From assembly GCA_016871725.1 (NCBI GenBank), contig VHCL01000015.1, positions 1-37,054 on the forward strand: a stretch of DNA of 37,054 nucleotides, read 5' to 3'. The DNA comes from Verrucomicrobiota bacterium. Lineage in GTDB: Bacteria; Verrucomicrobiota; Verrucomicrobiia; Opitutales; UBA953. Below the pieces are notes generated by a model, which saw nothing but the letters and a program-made list of their open reading frames with translations, made no database searches and was not told where the DNA came from. The position numbers and the translations under genes are program-made. Within the stretch, counting starts at the first letter, position 1, and every line of letters starts with the position of its first letter. Positions 1-13,552 of the stretch are shown here, in pieces.

Positions 1-127
1 GCAGGGAGTCGGCGGCGGTGTTATCGACGGTGACGGCGCCGGCGGTCAGGCCCGTGCCGGAGAAGACCGCGGTGCCCGCGGCGCCCACGGTGATCGTCGG
101 CGTCGCGCCGAAGTCGACCGCGGTCAA
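1..127. repeat. Perfect 127-bp direct repeat of 15538-15664
   Basis: Base-by-base comparison shows identity from position 1 to 127 against 15538-15664, with the first mismatch at 128 (a against c at 15665). Beyond it the two genes are clearly diverged. The offset of 15537 is a multiple of three, so both copies are read in the same frame ([17 protein letters not shown] and so on). The length equals the largest k-mer of widely used de Bruijn assemblers, so the left edge is probably a contig end at a graph branch. Confidence 0.95.
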
Positions 128-3100
128 AGATCCGCCCGTGACATTGAGGGCGGAAGTACCCGCGAGGGCGCCCGCATTGGCGATGAGCGAGCCCGCGGAG
201 ACCGAAGTGGCGCCGCCGAAGGTGTTGGCGCCAGAGAGGGTCAGGCTGCCAGACGTAGCCTTGATGAGCGAGCCGTTGGCTCCGCCGACCACGCCGCCGA
301 AGCTGCCGGCGTCGATCGTCAAGACCGTCGTGCCGAGGTTGATGGTGCCGCCGTTGAGCGTGCCGATGCTGGCCGTGGCGCCGTTGAGGTTCAGCGTGCC
401 GGAAGTGAGGGTCGTGACCGTGGCGACGCCGCCTATGGTGGTCGTGCCACCGTTGACCGTCGTCACGGTGGCGACGCCTGAGATGGCGTTGGTGCCGCCG
501 GTGACGGAGGCGGAGGAAAGAGCGCCGAGCGCATTGTTGCCCGCGGTGATCGATCCGGTGAGCAGACCAGAGACCGTGATCGAACTGCCGACGTTGCCGC
601 TCATCGAAGCCGCCGTGATCGTACCGGCCCCGGCGAGGACATTGCCGGTGAGCGCGCCGGTCAGGCTGACATCGCCGCCCGAGACGTTGCCCGTGAGGGC
701 CGCGGCGGTGACCGTGCCGCCGGTGATATTGGCGCCGAGCGTGCCGACCACGGTGACGGTGCCGACCGAGACGCCGCCCAGGACGTCGGCGTCGGCGCCG
801 AAGCGGGTGGCGCCCGAGCCAGCAAGGCTGGCCAGCGTGACCTTGCCCGTCGAAGCGGTGAAGTTGAGCGAATCGGCCGTCTGGTTGGCGTTCGTCACCG
901 CGCCGGCGGTCAAGCCGGCGCCGGAGAAGGCCGCGGTGCCCGCGGCGCCCACGGTGATCGTCGGTGTCGCGCCGAAATCGACCGCCGTCAAAGATCCGCC
1001 GGTCACATTGAGCGCGGAAGTTCCTGCGAGGGCGCCCGCATTGGCGATGAGCGAGCCCGCGGAGACCGAGGTGGCGCCCGTGTAGGCGGAAGAACCTGCC
1101 AAGGTGAGCGTGCCCGCACCGGTCTTGGTCAAGCCGCCGGTGGTATTAATGCCACCAACGTCACGCAACGTGCCCGCCAGGGCGTTGAACGTGATGGGGG
1201 CGCCGGCGGTGCCGATATTGCCTCCGGTCAGGTCCAAGGTGCCGCCGTCGAGGGTGATCGTGTTCGTCTCCGTGCCCAGGCCGTTCGTGTATTGGATGTT
1301 GCCACCCACGGTGAGGGAGCCCGTGCCCGTGATGTTGATGGACGCCGTGGCGGCGTTGTTGGCGTCGAGCGTGGTGGCGCCCATGACGAGGTTCGTCGAG
1401 CCGGCCAGGGTCAGCGACCCGGCGCTGATGTTGAGCGTGGAGAGGGCCGTGTTGACCGTCGTCGCGGCGTTCGCCGCCGAATTCTGCGCGCCCATCGCGA
1501 AGCTCGTGTTCACGGTGACGGCGCCGCCGGTGAGGTTGAGGGTGGCTTCCGTGTTGCTATCGCTGGCGAAACCGGCCGCGACGGTGTTCACGCCCATCGT
1601 CAGCGCGTTGATGCTGACGGTGCCGCCGCTGATGTTCAGCGTCGAGACCGCGTCGCCCGTCGAGTTGCCGGAAGTCAGGGCAACGCTGTTCGTGCTCATG
1701 GTCACGGTGCCGAGGGCGACGGCGCCGCCGCCGATGGTCAGGTTGCCAGTGGTGTTGCCTGTGGTTAAGGTGCTGCCGTCCCGCTTGCTCAGGATGACGG
1801 TAGTCGCATCCAGTATGCCGGCGCTGAAGGTCACTGTGCCGGCAGGGCTGGAGGTGTTGGAGGTGGCGGTGGTGCTACGGGAGCCAATGGTGAGCGTGCT
1901 GACGAGGAGGTCAGCATCGTGGCCCGCCAACAGCAATTCGCCGGTCATGGCTGTGTTGGTGCCGTAAGTGGTGTTGGTGACATTGACGATGGCGCGACCG
2001 GTCCCGTTGGCGGCGCGGACGACCAAGCTGCCTCCGGCTCCCGCGAAGTCCAGCAGGCCAGAGGCGCGCCCCGCGGAGGCGATGCTGATGGTGTTCGAGT
2101 TGATGGTGGTGACGCCTCCACCCATGCGCATGGTCTGCAAGCCGCTGTGGCCGCCGGTTCCGAGTTCGAAAAGATTGGCGGTGATCGTGCTCGTGTTGGC
2201 GAGAAGCAATGAGTTGGTTTCCGTCACAGCATTGGTGTCAGCACTGCCCATCCTGAAGTTGCCCGTGGTGCCGAGGTTGGCGGTGAAGACCGCCAGGCCG
2301 CTCATGTCGAGGGTGGTGGCATAGGCGGAATTGCCAGAGCTGCCCACGCGGAAGGTGCCGCCCGAGGCATTGATGATCCAAGCCGCGGTGCCTGCGCCGC
2401 TGACGTTCAGGCGGGTGGCCAGGGCGCCGGTGGTGGAGTTGCCGCCGATGGTGACGTTGCCGTTGGTGGTCAGCGCCTCACCGGTGCCGATGGTGATGGT
2501 GTTGGCTGTGGCCGTGTTGGTTTGGACAACCATGGCACCCGCGAAGGCGGCGCTGGCGCCCGTGAGGTCGAGCGTACTGGTGTTGGTACTGTTATTGCTG
2601 GATCCGATCGTCAGAGCACCGGCGAGGGAAGCATCCGCCGTGAGCACAACAGTGCCGCCGTCGAGCAGCGTGGCGCCCGAGTAGTTGTTGGCAGCGGTCG
2701 CGCTGAGGCCACCCAAAGTGAGGGTGCCTGAGCCCGTCTTTTCGAGGTTGAAGGTGTTCACGCCGTCGTCGATGACGCCGTTCACGGTCAGGTTGCCGGC
2801 CGTCACGGTGACCGGGATATTCGCCCCCAAGGTCACGGCACCGGCACCCATCGCCAGGTCGTTGGTGCCGAGGAAGGTGAAAGCAGCGTTCCAGGCCTGG
2901 GCGACGTTTCCTCCGAGCGCCAGCGTCGCGCCGGAAACATTGTTGAGGACGCCACCATTCAGGGTGAGCGTGCCGCTTCCGAGCGCATTGACGTGGCCAA
3001 GATTGAGGGTCGCTCCCGAGGCTACGGTGACGCCGCCGGCGGCACCAGCATTGTCGCCGCTGAGGACGAGGGTTCCGCCGGCGAGGACGGTGACGCCCCC

Positions 3101-6100
3101 GTAGGTGTTGCCACCGGCCAAGGTGAGCGTGCCCGCGCCGGTTTTGGTCAGGCCGAAGGTGGCGGCGCCGTCGCCGATAACTCCATCGACGGTCAGAATC
3201 TGGGCGGAAACGGTGGCGATGACGTTGTCGCCGAGGGTGACCGCGCCCGCACCGAGGTTCAGGGTGTTCGTCCCCGTGAAAGTGAAGCTGCCGTTCCAGT
3301 TCTGGAGGTTGTTGCCGGCGTTGACGACCGCGCTCGCGCCCGTATCGAGGGTCGTGCCCGCGCCGATGCTGAACGTGCCCGTGCCGAGGGCGTTGCCGTG
3401 GCCCAGCACCAGGGTGCCCGCTGCCAGATTGAAACCGCCGGAGCCGGAGTTGCTTCCGCTCAGCGTGAGCACGCCGGCGCCCGTCTTGCTGATCGGGTGG
3501 CCGATGGCCACCGCCCCCGTCACGGACAGGGAAGAACCGTTGGCCCCGCCGCCGACGACTTCCCAGGTCTGCGTCGCGCCGGTCGCGATCGGCGCGCCGA
3601 TGGTGATCGCCCCGGCGTCGGCGGGGACGGAGATGCCGTTGTTAGCGGAGGCCGGAACGAGGGTGAGCGTCCCGGAAGTCCCTTGATTGATCGCCACGGC
3701 AGTGACGCCGACGGGGTTGGTCGTGAACTTCAGGCTGTCGGCGGTGAAGTTGCCGTCCAGAGTGGTGGTGATGCTCGGTCCGACGGCCGACGTGGCGGCG
3801 AAGACCAGCGTATCGGTCGCGATCGGCAGCGCCCCGAGGTCCGTCGCGCCGGCCAGGTCGCTGGCCCAGTTGGTGTCGCCGGAGACGTTCGCACCCCACG
3901 ATCCGCTCACGTCGCCCTTCCAGTAGACCAGGTTCAACAGGCTCGTGGTCAGCCGCAAGGTCTGACCTCCGTTGACGGTGGTGAAGTTGTAATTCACGCC
4001 GGAGGGCGCGATGCCGAGGACGTAGTCGGCGGCGTTGAGCGTGCCGGCGCTGACGGAGAGGAGGTCGTAAGAACCGGCGCCGAGGGTGCCCAAGGCGTTG
4101 AAGTTCAGGGAGACCGACGGCGCGATGGCCGCGGTGCCGGTGAGGCTGAGGACGTCGTTGACGCCGTTGGCGCCGAGGTCGAAGCCGAGCGAACTGCCGT
4201 TGGCCAGCGTGAGTCCGGTGATCGCCATCGTGGTGGCGGCGCCGTCGTAAAGGTTGAGCGTCGCGGCGGCGGACACGGCGAGCGCGCCGACGCCGTTGGC
4301 GGTGAAGCCGAGATTGAGCACACCCGCGCTGACGGTCACGTTCCCGCCGTTGAGGTTGGTCGACCCGGTCACAGCGACGGCGCCGAGGCCGGTCTTGGTC
4401 ACGTTGGCCGCCGCAGGCGTCACGATGCCTCCCTGCAGGTTGAGAACGCCGGCGGCGTCGGAGACGTTGAGCGTGGTGCCGCCGCTGCCGACGGTCACCA
4501 CCTGATTGGCGACCAAGTTCGCGCTGGCGGAGCCCGTGTAGCTCAGGGTTCCGCCGTTGAGCGTAAGGGTGTTCGTCGCGGAAGCGTCGCCGAGCTGGTT
4601 GCCCGCGGAGAAAGCCAAGGTGCCGCCCGTGACGCTGGTCACGCCGGAATAGGTGTTCGCCTTGGAGAGGGTCACGGTATCCGCCGTGGTCTTGTTCAGA
4701 CCGACCGCGCCGCCGAGGCTGGCGCTGACCGAGCCGTTGCGCAGGTCGTAGTTGGCGGAGGAAGTGAGGACGCCGGTGGTACCGGTGATGGCCCCGCCTT
4801 GGAGAGAGACGGTCCCGACGGCGTTATTGAAGGACACCATATCTAACGTCCCGCCCGTGATGGTGACATTACCGGCGGTGGCCAGGACGTTGTTGGCGCC
4901 GAGCGCGAGGGTGCCGTTGTTGATGTTGGTGCCGCCGAGGTAGGTATTGGCACCGGAAAGCGTGAGCGTACCAGCCCCGGTCTTGGTGAGTCCGCCCGAA
5001 ACATTGCCCGAATTGAAAGTGACCGCGCCGAGCGTGGCCTGGGTCGTGTAGACGCTCGCGTTGTCCACGAAGCTCACCGTCAGCGTATCCGTAACGAGAT
5101 ACCCCGTGCCCGGATTGGTGATCGTGAGGCTGCCGATCTTGAAGGTGCCGTTACCGCTGCCATCGTCGACCATGTTGGCCATCGCCGTGGCGCCGGAGCC
5201 GGTGCCGCCGGTGATGCGGACGAGGGGGGCGCCGATGTAGCCCGTTCCTTCGGTGCTCACCGCGATGCTTTGGACGCCCAGGCCGGCCGGCGCCCGCAGC
5301 GGAGAAGGAATGGTCGAATTCAGGCCGTTGGTATCGACCGTCAGGCCGCCGGCGTAGACGAACGCCCCGCTATTGGCCGTCAGGGTGTTGTTGGTGTTAT
5401 TGAAATTGATCAGGTTCGCGGTGGCCTGGTTGGTGACGATCGTGCCGCCGTTGAGATTGATCTGGACGAAGTTGTTCGTGGCGCCCGAAGTGGTGCCGTT
5501 CGTGATGCCGCCTGAGGCCGTCCGGATGGTGCCGCCCGTGAGCAGGTTGAGCACGTTGGTCATGTTATCCCGATTGGCGTTATCTCCGCGATTGAGGAGG
5601 ATCGTCGAACCGGTCGCCGCGGTGAAAACCGCGCTGCCACGGATGTTCACGACGGAGGTGGAACCGGCATTATCGACCCCCATGGCGAAGTTCGTGCCGG
5701 AGTTGTAGGCTCCGCCCGCGAGGTCGAGCAGCACGGTGCCGGAACCGTGTCCGACCGTGGTCCAAGTCGTGATGTTCACCACGCCGCCCGTCTGCCGGAA
5801 GATGCCCGATCCGGAGCTGCCAGGATTCGAAAGAGTCAGACGGCTCAAGCTCAGCGTACCGTCGCTCAGCTCGTAATAACCATAGCCCGTGTTAGCGTTA
5901 CCTAGGCCGAAGACGCCGTTCCCATCGGCCGCCGTCAGGACCACAGTCCCGCCGGTCTGGTAACCCGCGCCTGCCGCTGCCGTGGCATTGGAACCGAAGT
6001 CCATGTCGACGGTGGTGATCGAAGCGCCGGAGCCGATCAGGAGCATGCCGCGCGTATTGGCGGCGGAACCCGTCGTGAACTGTCCGGCGGTCATCGTGGT

Positions 6101-9100
6101 CGTGCCCGTGACCACCGAAAGTCGGCCGCCGTTCACCGTGAAATTACCCGTGTTGGTGTTCGTGCCGCTGAGGGTCAGCATGCCGGTGCCGGTCTTGGTC
6201 AAGCCGAGCCCGAACGAGCCGCCGTTCTGCAGCGTGCCGCTGAAGGTGGTGCTGCTGTTGTCCCCGCCGACGGTGAGCGTCCGGGCGTTGGCCGTGCCGC
6301 CGTTCTCCACCGTGCCGGCGCCCGTGAGGGATCCGATGGTGGCGTCGAAATTATTCAGGCGCAGGATGGCGCCGGCGCTGACGGTATGGCCGGAGGCATT
6401 GCTGAAACCCTGGGCGATGCCGGCCTGAAGGACGCCTTCGGCCACGGTGGTCATACCGGAATAGGAGCTGCCCGCGGCAGCGAGGGTCAGGATGCCCGCG
6501 CCGGTCTTCTCGAGATTGAAGCCGCCGGTAATGGCGCCGCTCACGGTGAGGGCGGAGCCGTTGGCGCCGCCGCCGACGATGTTCCAGCGCTGGTTCGCAC
6601 CGAGGGCGACCGGGGCGCTGATGGTGACGGTGCCAGCGTTGGCGGCCACGTCGATGCCATCGGTCGCCACGGCGGGCGTGATGGTCAGGGATCCTGCCGA
6701 GATCACGCCAGGGGCGATGCTCACGGAGGTGATGCCGTTCGGATTGGCGGCGAATTCCAGGTCCTTGATGCTGAAATTGGAGTTAAGAGCCGTGGCGATC
6801 GTGGGACCTCCGGCGGTATTGGCGCTGAAGATGACGCGGTCGTTGAGGCCGGGCAGGCCGTTGGCGTTGGTGCCCGCCAGATCGGTGGCGAAATTGCTGG
6901 CGAACCCGAGATTCGCCGACCAGTTACCGTCGCCCAACGCGTTGGACCAGTAGAGATCCGAAGTGAAGGCGGTGACGTTGAGGCGGACCACGGTGTCGCT
7001 GACGGTCAGCGTGCGGCTGCCGCCGGCCACGTTGAGACTGCCGATGGCGTAGGTGGCGCCGCCGGAGGTCAGGCCGCCGGCGGCGGTGAGCAGGTCATAG
7101 TCGCCGACTCCGGAGCCGCTGAGGCCGGTCAGGTTCAGGACGACCTCGCCGCCCACCACGGCGGCGCCGGTCGAGGTGATACGGTCATAGGCGGTGAGGG
7201 AGCCGAGCTCGAGGCCGAGCACGGCGCTACCGGTGCCGGTCGCGCCCAGCGTCAGGATACCCGAGCCAAGGTTGACGGCCTGTCCGGCAGTGTTGACCAG
7301 ATTAAGGGTGGCGCCACGCGCCACGGTGAGAGCCGAAGTGGCGAGGGCGGCGGCGGGCGAGCCGGCGAGATTCAAGGTACCGCCGTTCACGACGACGGGT
7401 CCCGCGAAACTCAACGTCGCGCCCGTCAGAGTCAGGTTGCCGACGCCGGTCTTCGTGAGGCCGAGGTTGTTCTGGTTCGGCCCTGCGCCGCCGAGATTGC
7501 CGGCGTAGGTGCTGGTCGTCGACTGATCGACGGTGAGGACGGACACTGCCGCGTCGCCGGCCACGATCGAACTGGTGCTCGAGCCGCTGAGCTGGCTCAC
7601 GGTCTGGTTGGCGGCGCCGCTGCCGGCACCGAGCGTGAGCACGCTGTTGGCAGCCATGGACAGTGCGCCGGTGCCGATGGCGCCGGAAGCGCCGAGCGCG
7701 AGGGTGCCGGCGTTGACGTTGGTCCCGCCCGTGAGCGTGCTGGTCGCATTGAGCGTGAGCACGCCCGCTCCGGCCTTCGTGAGGGAACCGACCCCTGAAC
7801 CGAGCGAATTGGCGAAAGAGATGTTATTGCTGTTGGTGTCGAAGGTGGCGCCACCAGCCCCGAGGACCACGGTGCGAACTGAGATATCGAACGTCGCGCC
7901 GGTCGCCCAACGCAACCCGCCGCCGAAGAAGTTCAGATTGCCTGAACCCAGATTTCCGAGCACGCTGGCTTCAATCAGGCCTTGGTTAAAGAACGTGCCG
8001 CCGGAGTAGGTGTTGCCGGTAAGGCCATTGAGGACCAAGACGCCCGCGCCGCTCTTGGTCAGCGCCGCGGCGGAGGTGGTCAGGGGTGAACCCAAGGTGA
8101 ACTGGTTGTTAGTGACGAAGACGACGTATTCGTTATTCGTCGAGGTCGTGATGCCCGCGAAGCCCGTGAGCTCGGTATTGTTGGCGGCCGCACCCGTGGA
8201 AAGCAGCGCGCCAGCGGCGAGCACCAGGGTGTCTGAGCCGGGACCGGTGACAGTGACCGCTCCCGAGGTCGAATCGATGGCGAGGGCGTTGATCGTCTTG
8301 GTGCCGGCACCGGCCGCGGCCACCGTACCGGAGGTGGTAAAGCGTAGGTTGCTCGTCGTGGAGGCCGCCAGTCCGTCGTAACCCGCGACGTTGAAGACAT
8401 ATTCAGCATCGGCTCCGGTCGCGGTGGAAAGAGGCCGCAGACGGCCAGAGGTGTGACGTACGAAAGAGTTGCCCACGTCGGCGGCAGTCGGCGCCCCCGC
8501 CGTGGCCTGTCCGATCATGTAGGGGAAGATGCTCGCCGTGGTCGTGCCGTCCGCGCTGCCGCCGCCCACGGGGGCGTTGACCCCGGTGGGGACGGTAGTG
8601 ATAACGATACGGCCGCCAGTATCAGCGATGACCACGGAGCCGTAGGCGATGCTGCCGAGATTACGCCCGACCACTAGGGTGGTGGCGTTGTTGGTGCGGC
8701 TGATCGCATCGGTCGCAGCGCCCAACGTGAGAGTCCCGAAGCGGGTGGCCGTGCCGCCGGTGTAGTCGGCGGCGATCACGTTGTGTCCGGCCCCCAGGAT
8801 GACCGAGCCGATGGACTCGGAATTGCTGCCAGAGTTCTCGCTGTCACGGAAGAATAACCCGAGACCGGGCGCCGTGTTGTTCAGCGTGATGACGCTCGTG
8901 TTGGCAATGCGGTCCGGCGAGTTGTTGTTGTCGTGGTTAATATGCAGCTGGCTGCCGGGGTTGCTCACTGAAATCACCGTGGAGCCGATTCTTCCGCTGC
9001 CGGTGTCGTTTCCGCTCAGGCGGAGCTGGCCACCCAAGATTTGCAACGGCCCGGTGAAGGTGGCGCTGGAATTGATATTGATGGTGAGCGTGTTGGCGCC

Positions 9101-12100
9101 GTCCTTGATGAGCGTGCCCGTGCCGCTGATGAGGCCGGAGTAAGTCTGGTCGCTCGCCTGATTCAGACGCAGGGTGAAGGCTCCGATATCGATGGTGGTC
9201 TGTCCCCCTTGCGCGCTCTGTCCGCCGACGATGCCACCCACGGTCTCATTCGCCAGGAGCTGGAAGGTCGAAGCCCGGTTGCTGTTGATATTGAGCAACG
9301 AAGTATCGCCGATGGCGTTGCCGCCTTCCACCTGCAGCGTGCCGGCCTTGAGGTAGGTCACGCCGGTGAAATCGTTGATTCCGGAAAGCTTGAGGACCCC
9401 GTTGCCGGTCTTGGTGAGCGTGTGCGCGCCGCCGATGGCGGAGGAAACGGTGAGCGGGCGGGACGGCGTGGTGACGTCCGTGGTGAAAATCAGTTCATTG
9501 TCGGCGCCGGAAACCAGGCGGCCTCCGGTGAGGCTCGGGGCGACCGTGGACCCGACGCCCGCGGAGGTCTGGAGCACGCCGCCGGACATGATCGTGAGCA
9601 CGCGTCCGTCGGCGACGGTGACGGCCGAATCCGCGGCCGAATTAAAGCGCAGCGAGTTGACGCCGAGATTCTGCGCGAGCGTGCCGGAATAACCCGAAGC
9701 GCCGTCGGAGACGTGCTCGGCAGGAGCCCAGGTGGTGAGGTCCGCTTTCGTCGCGGAGGCTACGAGCACGACGCCTCCGGAGCCATCGTTAGCGGCGAAA
9801 TTAGTGACCCCCGCGGCGTTGGCCACGGTGGCCCAGCCGCCGAGGGTACCGTTGACGTTGGAAGAGGTGGTCCGGATGCCGTTCGTCGCGTCTTGGTCTC
9901 CGGCGGGCAGCATGAAGCGGACCGTACCGGCGGAAGTCCCCCGGGTGATCGCACCGAGGTCGAGGACGATCTTCTGCGAACCGCCCGGGGTGAGGCGCAG
10001 CGTGCTGAAAGCGCCGCCGGCAAGGGTCGTGCCGGCCACCGCCTGCGCGGTGTCCGCGGAGGCGTTGCCGAGCAGGATGAGATTGCCGCCCCCGTTCAAC
10101 GCCAAGGTCCCCGCGCTGTTGATCTTGGAGGTGTTGGACGTGGCGTAATCGAGGATCAGGCCGCCCGTCGTCAGGGTGGTGCTGCCCGTGTAGGTGTTGG
10201 TCCCCGAGAAGAGGAGGTTGCCGAAGCCGATCTTGGTCGGACCGAAGGCGCCCGAGGAAGACAGCGGCGCCGAGAAGATGAGCTCGGCCTGACCGGACGC
10301 CACCGCGGAACTGTCGCGCACGTCGAAGGTGCGGTTAGCGCCGAACGAGACGCGCCCCGTGCCCTCGGCCATGATCGCGACCGCCCTCATGGCGGCGCCG
10401 CCCGTGCCGGCGCCGTTGTAGATCATGTTCCCAGCCAGCGTGAGGACGCCGTCGTTCTCGATGAGGATGGAGGCGTCGCTGGCGGTGGTCGCGTTGCCGC
10501 CGAAGAAAATCAAGGCGTTGGTGTTGGTGCCGTTGACTCCCAAAGTCTGGCTGAAGCCGGCGCCGACCACCAGACGCGCCGAAAGATTGGCGGCGTTGCC
10601 GATCGTCATCGCGGCATTGGTCGCCAAGGCGTTGTTCGCGCCGATGCGCAAGATGCCGGACTGCAAGTCCGTCGTGCCCGTCCAGGCGCTCGTGCCGGCG
10701 AGCGTCAGGACGCCCGTGCCGACCTTGCGGATGATGTTGCCGGTGACGCCGCCAGCCGCGAACGTCCCCGAGAAGGTCGTCGAGGCGTTGCTGCCGCCGA
10801 CGATCAACGTCTTCGTGTTCGTGCTGGAGTTGACCACCGTCCCGGCTCCCGCCAAGGAACCGATGGTCATCTGCGGCGTGGTGCCGCTTCCCGTCAGGTC
10901 GAGCGTGCCGGCCGCCAGGACGGTGACCGGACTGGTGCCGCTGCTCACCTGGATGGAAGCGTCCGCCCTCACCGTGCCCTCATTGATGAAGAGAGGTCCC
11001 GTGAAGGTGGAGCTGGCGCCGATGACGAGCGTGCCGGGGCCGAGCTTCGTGTAGCCGCCGACGCCGCTGATGACGCCGCTCAGGGTAAGGACGGTTGCAG
11101 CCGTGGTGACTTCGATGTTACCATTACCGCCCTGAAGGAGGTAGGTGTGTGCCCCTGCGGTCGTGGCGGCACCACTGATCGTCCCGGTGGGACCGGTGTA
11201 GCGTAGCGTAGCACCATCGCGGATTTGAACGGCGGTGGTCGAGCCATTGCCAAGGCTGCCCGCGGCCGCCGCAGTCACGCTGCTGAAACTTAGAGTGCCG
11301 CCTTCGATACTTACGATGCCCGTCATGCCGTTGGCGCCTGAGCCGAGCGTCAGCGTGCCGGGCCCGGTCTTGACCAAGTTGTTACCGGCCAAGGGCGCAT
11401 TGATCGTGAGGCCCCCGGTGTTATGCTGGTGGATGAAGATGGTCGTCGAGCCGGAGCCGAGCGTGCCGGTTCCGTTGATGACGTAAGCGTGCGAACCCGT
11501 CACCAAGAGTCCGTTCATCGTCAAGGAATTGGCGCCGAGATTAAGGACCTGCGAAGCACCCGTAGCGGTGATCTTCAACGTGTTGATGGTGTTCGCGGGC
11601 GAGGTCTGGACCTGGCCGCCGGACAACGTGCGGTTATCCGCCGCGGCTCCGATGACGTCCGCCGCCAACGCCCCGGTGTAAGCCGGCGCGGTGCCGACGC
11701 CAAGACCGCCCAAGGTGAACGGCGAGCTGCCACCGTTGTGGCTGAGCCAGTTGACGGCCCCCGCCCCATCGCTGAAGACGGCGCGTCCGGCGCCATAAAT
11801 ATTGTTGGTGACGTTTGTGGTCGTGACCTGGACCGTGGTGTTGGTAGGAGCCTGGACCAGCAGGGTGCCGCCGGTGAAGGTCAGTGTGCCCAAGGTCAAC
11901 TGAGTGCCCAGCGCACTCCCATTCGGATCCATGATGATGGAGCCGCCGGTCCTGTCGAGGGTGAAGTTGCCCAGCGTCTGAGCAATCGCGGAGCCGCTGT
12001 TACGTCCTTTGACCTGCAGGTTGCCCCCAGCGATCGTCAATGGAGTCCCCGCCAGCATGCTGGTGAGGCTTCCTGCTGTGAAATCCAGTAGAATGGAGCC

Positions 12101-13087
12101 ACCATTGATGACCGTCGCCCCTGTGTAGGTGCTCGCTTCCGTGGGAGCGAGAGTCAAAGTACCCGCCCCGATCTTGGTGATCGCCACACGTCCGGCGGTG
12201 GCGGGATTGATACGCCCGCTAAAGGTCGAGCTCGTGTCATCACGGCCGATGGTGACGTTGCGGTTTGTGCCTGAGCTGTTGGTGAGATCGCCGGCGCCGG
12301 CCAGCGACCCCATCGTCACCGCCTGTTGCACATTGAGGGTCGCGCCGCTGGCGATCGTCACGGCGGTGCGGATCGGCAGGGCCGAAGAAAGGTTAAGCAC
12401 CAGCGTGCCAGCGTTCACCGTGGTCGTGCCGGCGTAGGTATTGGCGCCGGACAGTCGGGCGGTGCCCGTGCCGCTCTTTGTAAGATTACCCGCCGTGGAA
12501 ATGACGCCTGAGATGTCAATGGCCGCCGCACCAGCGGTACTCGTTCCATTTAGCGTGATGCTAGATGCGACCGATTGCAGCGCGCCCGAAAGGGTCAGCG
12601 TGCCGCCGCCGGCGTTGTTGGAAATGGTCAGCGCGTCGTTGAACAGGATATCCGCGGAGATCGTGTCCAGGCTGGGCGAGAGGTTCAGCTTATTGATGGA
12701 CACGTCACCATCCGTATCATCCAAGATCAGGAGCCCGTTCGTGCCGCCAGCCAAAGTGTAACCGGCGGCCGAAGAGGGCGCGGACGCTCCGAAATTCAGT
12801 TCGCCGATGGTGATCACGGCGTTGAGGTTCACCGTCTGCGCGCCATCGAGCGCGCCGCTCAGGTTCGCGATATCACCGATCGCGTCAGGGAAACCAGAAC
12901 CTCCCCAGTTGGCCGAGTCAGTCCAACTGTAAGTGTTGACGGCCGACTGGCTCCACGTGAGGTTCGCCGCCTGAGCCTGCGGGGCCGTCGACAGGGCGCC
13001 GCCAAGGAGGACGGCCGCGACCATGAGGGACGCCCGAGACAACGAAGCCTTGGGAGTGAGAGAACAGGGCCGTTGGGAGGGGGACAT
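1..13087 (-). CDS. Giant PATR-repeat secreted protein, N-terminal 4,362 codons (3' end outside window)
   Basis: The minus-strand frame starting at ATG 13087-13085 stays open to the left edge. I checked the frame at the signal peptide, near 12150, 8800, 6950, 3920, 1124 and 1-216; each reads as PATR-type protein. Residues 1-40 form a Sec signal peptide with an arginine-containing n-region, hydrophobic core [10 protein letters not shown] and AQA cleavage site. A W-rich header follows ([17 protein letters not shown]). The first PATR motif is near residue 200, and I count about 20, for example [15 protein letters not shown] headers recur with their Trp at residues 2047 and 3056, each after a C-terminal-like domain. 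PATR (Pfam PF12951) is known to form beta-helical surface passengers. The best paralogue is the neighbouring 7,776-residue protein, whose C-terminal 2.9 kilo-residue part it resembles most. If that collinearity continues, about 2 kb and a PEP-CTERM tail lie beyond the window. No Shine-Dalgarno sequence is visible before the ATG. Ligand and function are unknown. Confidence 0.93.
465..780 (-). repeat. Insertion of about 100 residues carrying four 14-16 residue TGNV repeats
   Basis: The protein reads [40 protein letters not shown] and [13 protein letters not shown] in direct succession, each unit about one turn of a beta solenoid. The flanks ([13 protein letters not shown] on one side, [16 protein letters not shown] on the other) align with the upstream gene at 15380-15510, which lacks the block. 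Limits are approximate. Confidence 0.75.
865..1078. repeat. Second, diverged copy of 1-214 (tandem internal duplication)
   Basis: Positions 865-1078 align without gaps to 1-214 at an offset of 864 bases (288 codons), with roughly nine bases in ten identical by eye. Both encode [17 protein letters not shown] / [12 protein letters not shown] followed by [16 protein letters not shown]. The downstream protein therefore carries this segment twice in tandem; the upstream gene has it once. Confidence 0.85.
3470..3960 (-). other. Internal YW header segment (third passenger unit) in the downstream gene
   Basis: The strand reads [16 protein letters not shown], then [19 protein letters not shown] and [10 protein letters not shown], leading into the PATR motif [13 protein letters not shown]. 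The header Trp is residue 3056. The preceding 150 residues ([33 protein letters not shown]) look like the terminal domain that normally sits just before a PEP-CTERM tail. It is closely similar to the header at residue 4878 of the upstream protein. Confidence 0.7.
5090..5280 (-). other. GTGY / GGTGSGATA segment inserted in the PATR array
   Basis: About 60 residues read [38 protein letters not shown] and [16 protein letters not shown]. This pairs two G-x-GY turns with a Gly/Ala-rich GATA stretch. Similar units occur in bacterial and phage surface proteins as short beta-rich modules. It interrupts the usual PATR rhythm and I see no second copy in either gene here. Its function is unknown. Confidence 0.6.
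6500..6970 (-). other. Internal YW header segment (second passenger unit) in the downstream gene
   Basis: The strand reads [15 protein letters not shown], then [11 protein letters not shown] and [15 protein letters not shown], followed by a beta-rich stretch that runs into the PATR motif [12 protein letters not shown]. The header Trp is residue 2047. The layout matches the mature N-terminus of these proteins (aromatic W, NW, P-x-x-D) and follows a domain that resembles a PATR C-terminus (YDRITSTG, then YDLL). I infer a fused passenger unit; it has no signal peptide of its own. Confidence 0.7.
12968..13087 (-). other. Signal peptide of the downstream PATR protein
   Basis: Residues 1-40 begin [10 protein letters not shown], then [16 protein letters not shown], and end in the A-Q-A signal peptidase I site just before AANLTW. 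The core matches that of the upstream protein ([12 protein letters not shown], then APQA-AANL-W). This shared prefix supports the chosen ATG and a common export route for both proteins. No lipobox is present, since no Cys follows the hydrophobic core, so a lipoprotein is unlikely. Confidence 0.9.
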
Positions 13088-13363
13088 CCGGATGATGGTT
13101 AAGTTTTTGATAAAAAAACAGCCCCAGCGGGCCGAGACCGAGGGTTTCTGGTTTTGAAAATGGGGTTAGAGTCATTCTAAGGGGTAAACCTAGTTCACAA
13201 TCAAAAACGCCTTAAAAGGCATCTAATTAGGCCTATTCGCCTAAAATGCCCCATTTAAATTCATAAACTATTATATATTAATGGTTTATATAAATATTCA
13301 CCCCGCCCCACCCCGATTCCTGACTCAAACCCTGGTTTACCTTCGAATTCGTGCATCTGCCTT
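13088..13363 (-). promoter_or_regulatory. AT-rich leader and presumed promoter region of the downstream PATR gene
   Basis: Between the hairpin cluster and the ATG the sequence turns sharply AT-rich, most of all at 13251-13303, unlike the GC-rich genes. On the minus strand a TATAAT hexamer lies at 13275-13270. No convincing -35 box sits at 17 bases and no Shine-Dalgarno sequence precedes the ATG. If that hexamer is the -10 box, the untranslated leader is about 175 bases long. No ORF with protein-like content was seen here. Confidence 0.4.
13209..13250. repeat. Nested inverted repeats in the leader
   Basis: GCCTT/AAGGC at 13209-13220 is followed by an overlapping larger hairpin. Its inner arms TTAGGC (13227-13232) and GCCTAA (13239-13244) lie inside outer arms AGGCAT (13217-13222) and ATGCC (13246-13250). 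The first AAGGC arm is shared by both structures, so they exclude each other. This could be an operator, or an RNA switch in the leader of the downstream gene. The structure is seen; the role is inferred. Confidence 0.5.
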
Positions 13364-13504
13364 GGGTAGGGACGCGATCGCCATCGCGTCCGCCGTTCGC
13401 CGCAGGGCGAACCGGTAGGGCTGACCGGCTCGGTCAGCCGCGGTTGAGCGGGCCGCTCAACCCTACCCGAGGCAACTAGGTCAGCACGCAGTGCTGACCC
13501 TACC
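13364..13504. repeat. Composite palindromic element: five perfect hairpins framed by GGTAGGG / CCCTACC boxes
   Basis: Five stems follow each other: 13371-13390 (8-bp arms GACGCGAT), 13395-13412 (7-bp arms GTTCGCC), 13419-13439 (8-bp arms GGCTGACC), 13442-13462 (up to 10-bp arms GGTTGAGCGG) and 13479-13499 (9-bp arms GGTCAGCAC). All arms pair perfectly. GGTAGGG boxes lie at 13365-13371 and 13414-13420, and their reverse complements at 13461-13467 and 13498-13504, so the whole element is also symmetric. It resembles REP/REPIN-type or miniature mobile repeats. It could end transcription of the upstream gene, but no U-tract follows any stem. Confidence 0.85.
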
Positions 13505-13524
13505 TCGAGACGGACACTCCCCCT

Positions 13525-13552
13525 ATACTCGATACTCCATACTCAATACTCC
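13525..13552. repeat. Four perfect tandem copies of the heptamer ATACTCN
   Basis: The units are ATACTCG, ATACTCC, ATACTCA and ATACTCC, each seven bases with only the last base varying. The array starts seven bases beyond the stop codon of the upstream gene, so it lies in its 3' untranslated region. It may be a short sequence repeat or a protein-binding array. Confidence 0.85.

Follow-up and report, generated by a model that had tools for sequence, protein, structure and literature searches.

A mosaic cluster of GTAG REP units, most likely copied by several RAYT families, between two giant genes of a Verrucomicrobiota bacterium

Why do five perfect hairpins with unrelated arms stand side by side, behind one and the same short box, between two genes of a Verrucomicrobiota bacterium? 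The locus lies in contig C15 of G000, a draft genome of 2.37 Mb and 178 contigs; the whole 37,054-nucleotide stretch analysed is referred to here as the window. The answer at which we arrive, and which we hold with high confidence, is that the locus is a mosaic, BIME-like cluster of GTAG REP units, most likely copied there by REP-associated tyrosine transposases (RAYTs). Its setting is unusual in itself. On one side, a repeat-rich gene of 7777 codons with a PEP-CTERM-like end (13559–36892, minus strand) has its stop about 55 bp from the hairpins; on the other side, a second giant gene of at least 4362 codons (2–13087, minus strand), truncated where the contig ends, starts 277 bp away. The original prediction regarded these genes as highly similar. 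They are indeed paralogous, yet the best long stretch has only 34% identity, and the 86% identity is confined to a piece of 87 residues. At the DNA level, parts of the two adjacent repeat-rich genes are 74–86% alike. Just past the stop of the 7777-codon gene there is also a TATACTCGATACTCCATACTCAATACTCC tract (13516–13551), and similar tracts recur near REP clusters.

The five hairpins occupy positions 13365–13504 and are accompanied by four outward-facing GGTAGGG boxes, two direct (13365–13371 and 13414–13420) and two inverted, reading CCCTACC (13461–13467 and 13498–13504). All of these elements agree with the original prediction; the end of its overall span, 13364–13504, was also right, while the start was one base off. 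Four of the hairpins follow a common plan, in which GGTAG leads into a 9-bp perfect stem starting with GG and closed by a loop of three or four nucleotides. The final two G of each box are thus the first two stem bases, and GGTAGGG is constant because the stems after GGTAG all begin with GG. Unit 1 (13365–13391, plus strand; hairpin 13370–13391) has the stem GGACGCGAT/ATCGCGTCC with the four-base loop cgcc and matches our covariance model with 29.2 bits. It is followed by the only hairpin without a box of its own (13395–13412, no strand assigned), a 7-bp stem, GTTCGCC with GGCGAAC, around the four-base loop gcag. The model likewise matches the other three units, each with a three-base loop: unit 2 (13414–13439, plus strand; hairpin 13419–13439; stem GGCTGACCG/CGGTCAGCC, loop gct), the inverted unit 3 (13442–13467, minus strand; hairpin 13442–13462; stem GGTTGAGCG/CGCTCAACC, loop gcc) and the inverted unit 4 (13479–13504, minus strand; hairpin 13479–13499; stem GGTCAGCAC/GTGCTGACC, loop tgc, then TAG). 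Units 2 and 3, separated by 2 bp, make up a 54-bp head-to-head, REPIN-like heterodimer (13414–13467), which unit 1 precedes and past which unit 4 stands at a distance of 11 bp. The dimer together with unit 4 forms a 91-bp composite (13414–13504) that recurs in the genome and the genus.

Such a concentration of stems is not due to chance: 13 of the window's 88 perfect-hairpin matches (arms of at least 7, overlapping matches included) fall into the 140 bases of the cluster. The cluster also folds far better than expected, at −99.6 kcal/mol compared with −69.4 ± 4.1 kcal/mol for dinucleotide shuffles (z −7.3; 0 of 200 shuffles). Many stems in a short space might bring to mind a CRISPR-like array, a ribozyme or another known structured RNA, but there is no repeat-spacer periodicity, and an Rfam scan of the whole window returned 0 families at the gathering score, so that we consider an identity of this kind barely conceivable. 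A different possibility is that the cluster persists mainly for its function as an RNA element, protecting the 3′ end of the mRNA or acting by attenuation into the next gene, with the spread of the repeats being secondary. The very stable fold and the position about 55 bp past the stop of a 23-kb gene speak for such a role, and roles of REPs in mRNA stability and termination are proposed in a study of GTAG REPs (PMC3733652). On the other hand, no stem with a T-tract was detected by the terminator scan within 13365–13504, and terminator-like sites, one of them on the minus strand at 13140–13119, were all outside the cluster. The original prediction was therefore correct in holding that the locus is neither a CRISPR nor a standard terminator. 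The minus-strand site just mentioned (13119–13140) is a stem with a T run, 32 bp ahead of the point where the left giant gene starts; it could serve to end the upstream transcript or as a leader attenuator.

If the hairpins are units of a repeat family, they should not be confined to one locus. A genome search for further box-plus-hairpin copies had been set as the test of the original prediction, with their absence as the adverse outcome, and many copies were found. A rigid pattern (GGTAGGG plus fixed spaced bases) gave only 2 stray matches; the pattern of the 54-bp dimer occurred at 17 places of the genome (16 of them exactly 54 bp) and at none in the reversed control. With a covariance model built from single units (R1), for which E-values are rough, at least 193 unit copies were detected in G000, and the sampled contigs contain dozens of units with many different arms and one constant box. 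Among the 17 dimer places, 12 are on contigs shorter than 10 kb (among C58–C138); breakage of the assembly by repeats is probably behind these short contigs, contamination not being excluded. The box-less hairpin is recurrent in G000 as well, mostly 3–5 bp ahead of a GGTAGGGGC unit. Beyond this genome, R1 units are present in 54 of the 55 genomes of the genus (Opitutae-type) and in 1 of 13 genomes from other genera of the order, the remaining 12 having none; named contigs bearing the dimer come from metagenome assemblies of Opitutae, Opitutales and Verrucomicrobia, plus one labelled Akkermansia. Another dispersed repeat, GTGCAAAAGTGCAAATCGGCC with its continuation, adjoins REP units at positions 484 and 1871 of locus L022 and at 8256 of L034.

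The arms of these units vary in a compensatory manner. Among 24 distinct units, substitutions in one arm are matched by substitutions in the other at seven of the nine stem pairs, and the covariation score is 0.847, compared with 0.227 in shuffles (0 of 500 reach the observed value) and 0.02–0.16 in slid structures. Because sequences entered this set by having the GTAG box and at least 8 of 9 pairs, the paired percentage is subject to selection bias; the covariation count demonstrates the freedom with which arms change without losing complementarity. Similarly, the box is invariant in the unit alignment, which was itself gathered by that box.

Do the hairpins have a transposase of their own? 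A Pfam Y1_Tnp search revealed transposase-like genes in many genomes of the genus. In G000 it identified two long proteins of 310–311 residues, one of which is adjoined by other palindromes: in locus L016 (885–970; contig C107 of G000), the gene for the 310-residue protein is followed by a different repeated palindrome, GGGTCAGGCTACTAGGTGGTAGCCTGACCC. The long proteins were dropped as candidates for hairpin-linked RAYTs, the class-linked ones being compact. Since the compact transposases sit between REP units, eight of them were aligned (alignment A3) and used for a new search. The alignment features conserved MPDHxH, a downstream Tyr and NPxRA, with H68, H70 and Y121 invariant, corresponding to the HxH of the HUH motif and the catalytic tyrosine. 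All eight proteins match the NCBIfam family NF047646, "REP-associated tyrosine transposase", and their profile matches the structure of E. coli TnpA-REP (4ER8) with an E-value of 3.8e-15. At E ≤ 1e-15, compact RAYT genes were found at 54 places in 28 of the 55 genomes of the genus.

The association of these genes with the hairpins is both tight and specific. All 52 loci readable by our script have units on at least one side and 47 have them on both; in 42 of these 47, a near-identical hairpin is present on both sides, compared with 8.3 (maximum 17) obtained by shuffling. Of the five remaining both-side loci, four come from a single RAYT group, in which the same two hairpin classes are always paired. 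Clustering of the RAYT proteins at 60% identity produced 18 groups, with hairpin similarity of 0.97 within and 0.43 between groups, although the within-group value is partly inherited, because orthologous RAYTs of sister species are not independent. The similarities of RAYT proteins and of hairpins are correlated over all loci (Mantel r 0.74) and over group representatives (r 0.34), with 0 of 5000 permutations reaching these values. Each RAYT clade, then, has its own hairpin class, and the clade predicts the hairpin. At two loci, the downstream GTAG box supplies the TAG stop codon of the RAYT gene (L146, G024:C43, 1931–1935; L141, G002:C37, 1937–1941). Furthermore, units are more numerous in congeners that have a compact RAYT than in those without (median 114.5 versus 37, p 3e-5; 121 versus 30, p 0.002, for genomes at least 90% complete), where the per-genome counts are among the matches listed (about 140–150 candidates) and RAYT presence, completeness and phylogeny are confounded.

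This correspondence makes it possible to ask which RAYTs the hairpins of the window belong to. The arms of unit 4 are those of the RAYT group 0 class, and the arms of units 2 and 3 are those of the group 1 class, with 14 of 14 arm bases identical in each case; the loops of units 2 and 3 are gct and gcc, and most group 1 loops are ccct. For unit 1, the nearest are groups 15 (GGATGCGATgac) and 17 (GGACGTGATtgcc), each sharing 12 of 14 arm bases, with group 9 tying through a locus that also bears a group 17 hairpin, so that the proposed class of this unit is the least certain of the four. Hairpins like the box-less one stand on both sides of a group 16 RAYT in a congener (G061). Genome-wide, 132 of the 195 units of G000 have arms identical to a RAYT-flanking hairpin. 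A looser assignment (at least 11 of 14 bases) would have covered 191 of the 195, but column-shuffled hairpins reach that threshold in 47% of cases, and for this reason it was rejected and exact arm matches were relied on. Judging from the arms, about four REPtron families most likely contributed modules to the 140 bp; as the hairpins match the classes of about four RAYT clades, we read the cluster as a BIME-like mosaic of several REPtron families. In G000 itself, compact RAYTs of one class are assembled, GGGCAGCACcgc, in the form of two fragments that lie at the end of contig C100 and at the end of C17 and may be one gene. Since this fragmented draft assembles class GGGCAGCACcgc only, the RAYTs cognate to the hairpins of the window are known from congeners alone. 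Taken with the intergenic copies, the varied hairpins and their compensatory arms, the cognate RAYT genes bear out the original idea of a modular REP-like or miniature mobile family of exchangeable cassettes.

Comparison of orthologous intergenic sites in congeners shows that they differ by whole units, that is, by gain or loss, whatever the mechanism. Contig C67 of G000 has two extra units relative to L048, with flanking sequences of 1246 bp (87% identity) and 1901 bp (83%), and L052 differs from L079 by one 54-bp dimer, with flanks at about 76%. In these empty-site comparisons the flanks are about 76–96% identical and some lie within other repeats; the candidates L126 and L189 were left out as overlapping stretches of one genome. 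The 91-bp composite (13414–13504) might itself be the mobile unit, with ends from two RAYT systems. Of 137 BLAST copies of the region, 73 start exactly at 13414, 31 end at 13467 and 30 end at 13504/13505; composites with 72–97% identity, often bounded by outward GTAG boxes, are found in several contigs and genomes. However, repeated insertion of unit beside unit would look identical, as would the spread of larger repeats containing the composite (some matches extend up to 13551, into the TATACTCGATACTCCATACTCAATACTCC tract), and the spacers vary in length. We therefore regard the composite as an improbable unit of mobility. Were mixed-end composites nevertheless amplified as single units, RAYT families would share and recombine their substrates and thereby build modular elements, an outcome to which we give an equally small chance.

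The placement of the clusters also bears on their nature. Of 90 clusters, 82 fall outside called ORFs, in sequence of which 82.5% was called coding, and the 354 kb sampled of G000 contain such clusters at about 80 further intergenic places. The suggestion that the cluster is a barrier, a functional insulator or boundary between near-identical genes, draws on its location between two paralogous giant genes; it is not supported, as these genes are only partly similar and the same units stand between other genes throughout the genome, which makes it highly improbable. Of 75 clusters with known neighbours, 37 are in tandem, 28 in convergent and 10 in divergent gaps, compared with 97, 32 and 39 among the gaps of at least 20 bp in the sampled sequence; these counts come from a simple gene caller of our own and from contigs chosen for holding units. 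The preponderance of tandem and convergent gaps is what a role in RNA would favor. Yet related gene ends in two congeners are followed by REP units that differ largely in class and order, and thus no specific hairpin is conserved behind them. On balance, retention mainly as an RNA element appears unlikely, whereas, within the preferred reading, the hairpins may secondarily act as RNA at the 3′ end of the upstream transcript.

That preferred reading, a stack of RAYT-copied REP units, may be outlined as follows. Each unit would most likely be non-autonomous: a RAYT, a HUH/Y1 tyrosine transposase, would copy it as single-stranded DNA, using the constant GTAG box together with the stem and loop of the hairpin. 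Successive insertions from several REPtron families would then stack in one intergenic space. Unrelated perfect hairpins could stand behind one box because different RAYT lineages use different hairpins. We infer that the RAYTs move the units and that they recognize them in the manner of the REPtrons studied in vitro; the order in which the units arrived is likewise our inference. Stacked REP units in this way explain the puzzling structure of five unrelated hairpins with one box, and they suggest that several RAYT systems act simultaneously in shaping the intergenic DNA of this lineage. How a RAYT chooses its own REP among many GTAG-tagged perfect palindromes is poorly understood. What is notable here is the number of naturally paired RAYT and hairpin sets: with 18 RAYT groups in one genus, several coexisting per genome, the recognition code (stem and loop versus protein) becomes directly testable.

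How does the cluster compare with known systems? GTAG-tagged REPs have been described as having such stems and loops, head-to-head dimers, heterodimers, groups, several families per genome and repeat-specific REPtrons (Di Nocera et al. 2013, PMC3733652), the sole relevant paper we found on RAYTs or REPtrons in Verrucomicrobia or Opitutus. In it, Opitutus terrae is described as having high numbers of GTAG REPs, with dimers only 1–2 bp apart. The repeats studied here are likewise tagged palindromes in many copies, mainly extragenic and arranged in head-to-head dimers. They share with the GTAG REP superfamily an unpaired GTAG tag at one end, a short perfect stem, a loop of 2–4 nt, heterodimers, close spacing within dimers (2 bp here, 1–2 bp in O. 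terrae GTAG-17), several families per genome, repeat-specific REPtrons and the host phylum, Verrucomicrobia; the likeness to GTAG-17, GTAG-19 and GTAG-20 of O. terrae is one of description rather than of individual bases. As in REPtrons, the RAYTs of the genus are flanked by the same REPs and have the HUH motif and the catalytic tyrosine. With REPINs (Bertels and Rainey 2011, PMC3116915), the dimers have in common two inverted REP units and a tie to a RAYT, but their halves usually differ in arms, making them heterodimers. In BIMEs, too, intergenic DNA carries several REP units that alternate in orientation and are separated by short spacers, whereas a single cluster here mixes units belonging to different RAYT families. 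A similar hairpin form is seen in the group 3 REPtron of S. maltophilia, one of three REPtrons dissected in vitro (Corneloup et al. 2021, PMC8266576), where GTAG is followed by a perfect palindrome (8 bp there, 9 bp here) with a loop of 3 nt. Its TnpA-REP shares the HUH motif and the tyrosine with our RAYTs, a likeness in sequence features. TnpA-REP uses GTAG and the stem-loop, and loop bases are crucial for perfect-palindrome REPs (PMC8266576); the class-linked loops seen here would agree with such loop-dependent recognition. Thus, as every testable defining feature of GTAG REPs is present, the cluster is an unusually rich example of an already known kind of repeat, and differs from the GTAG REPs described so far in that a single genus combines 18 RAYT groups and their hairpin classes behind a common box.
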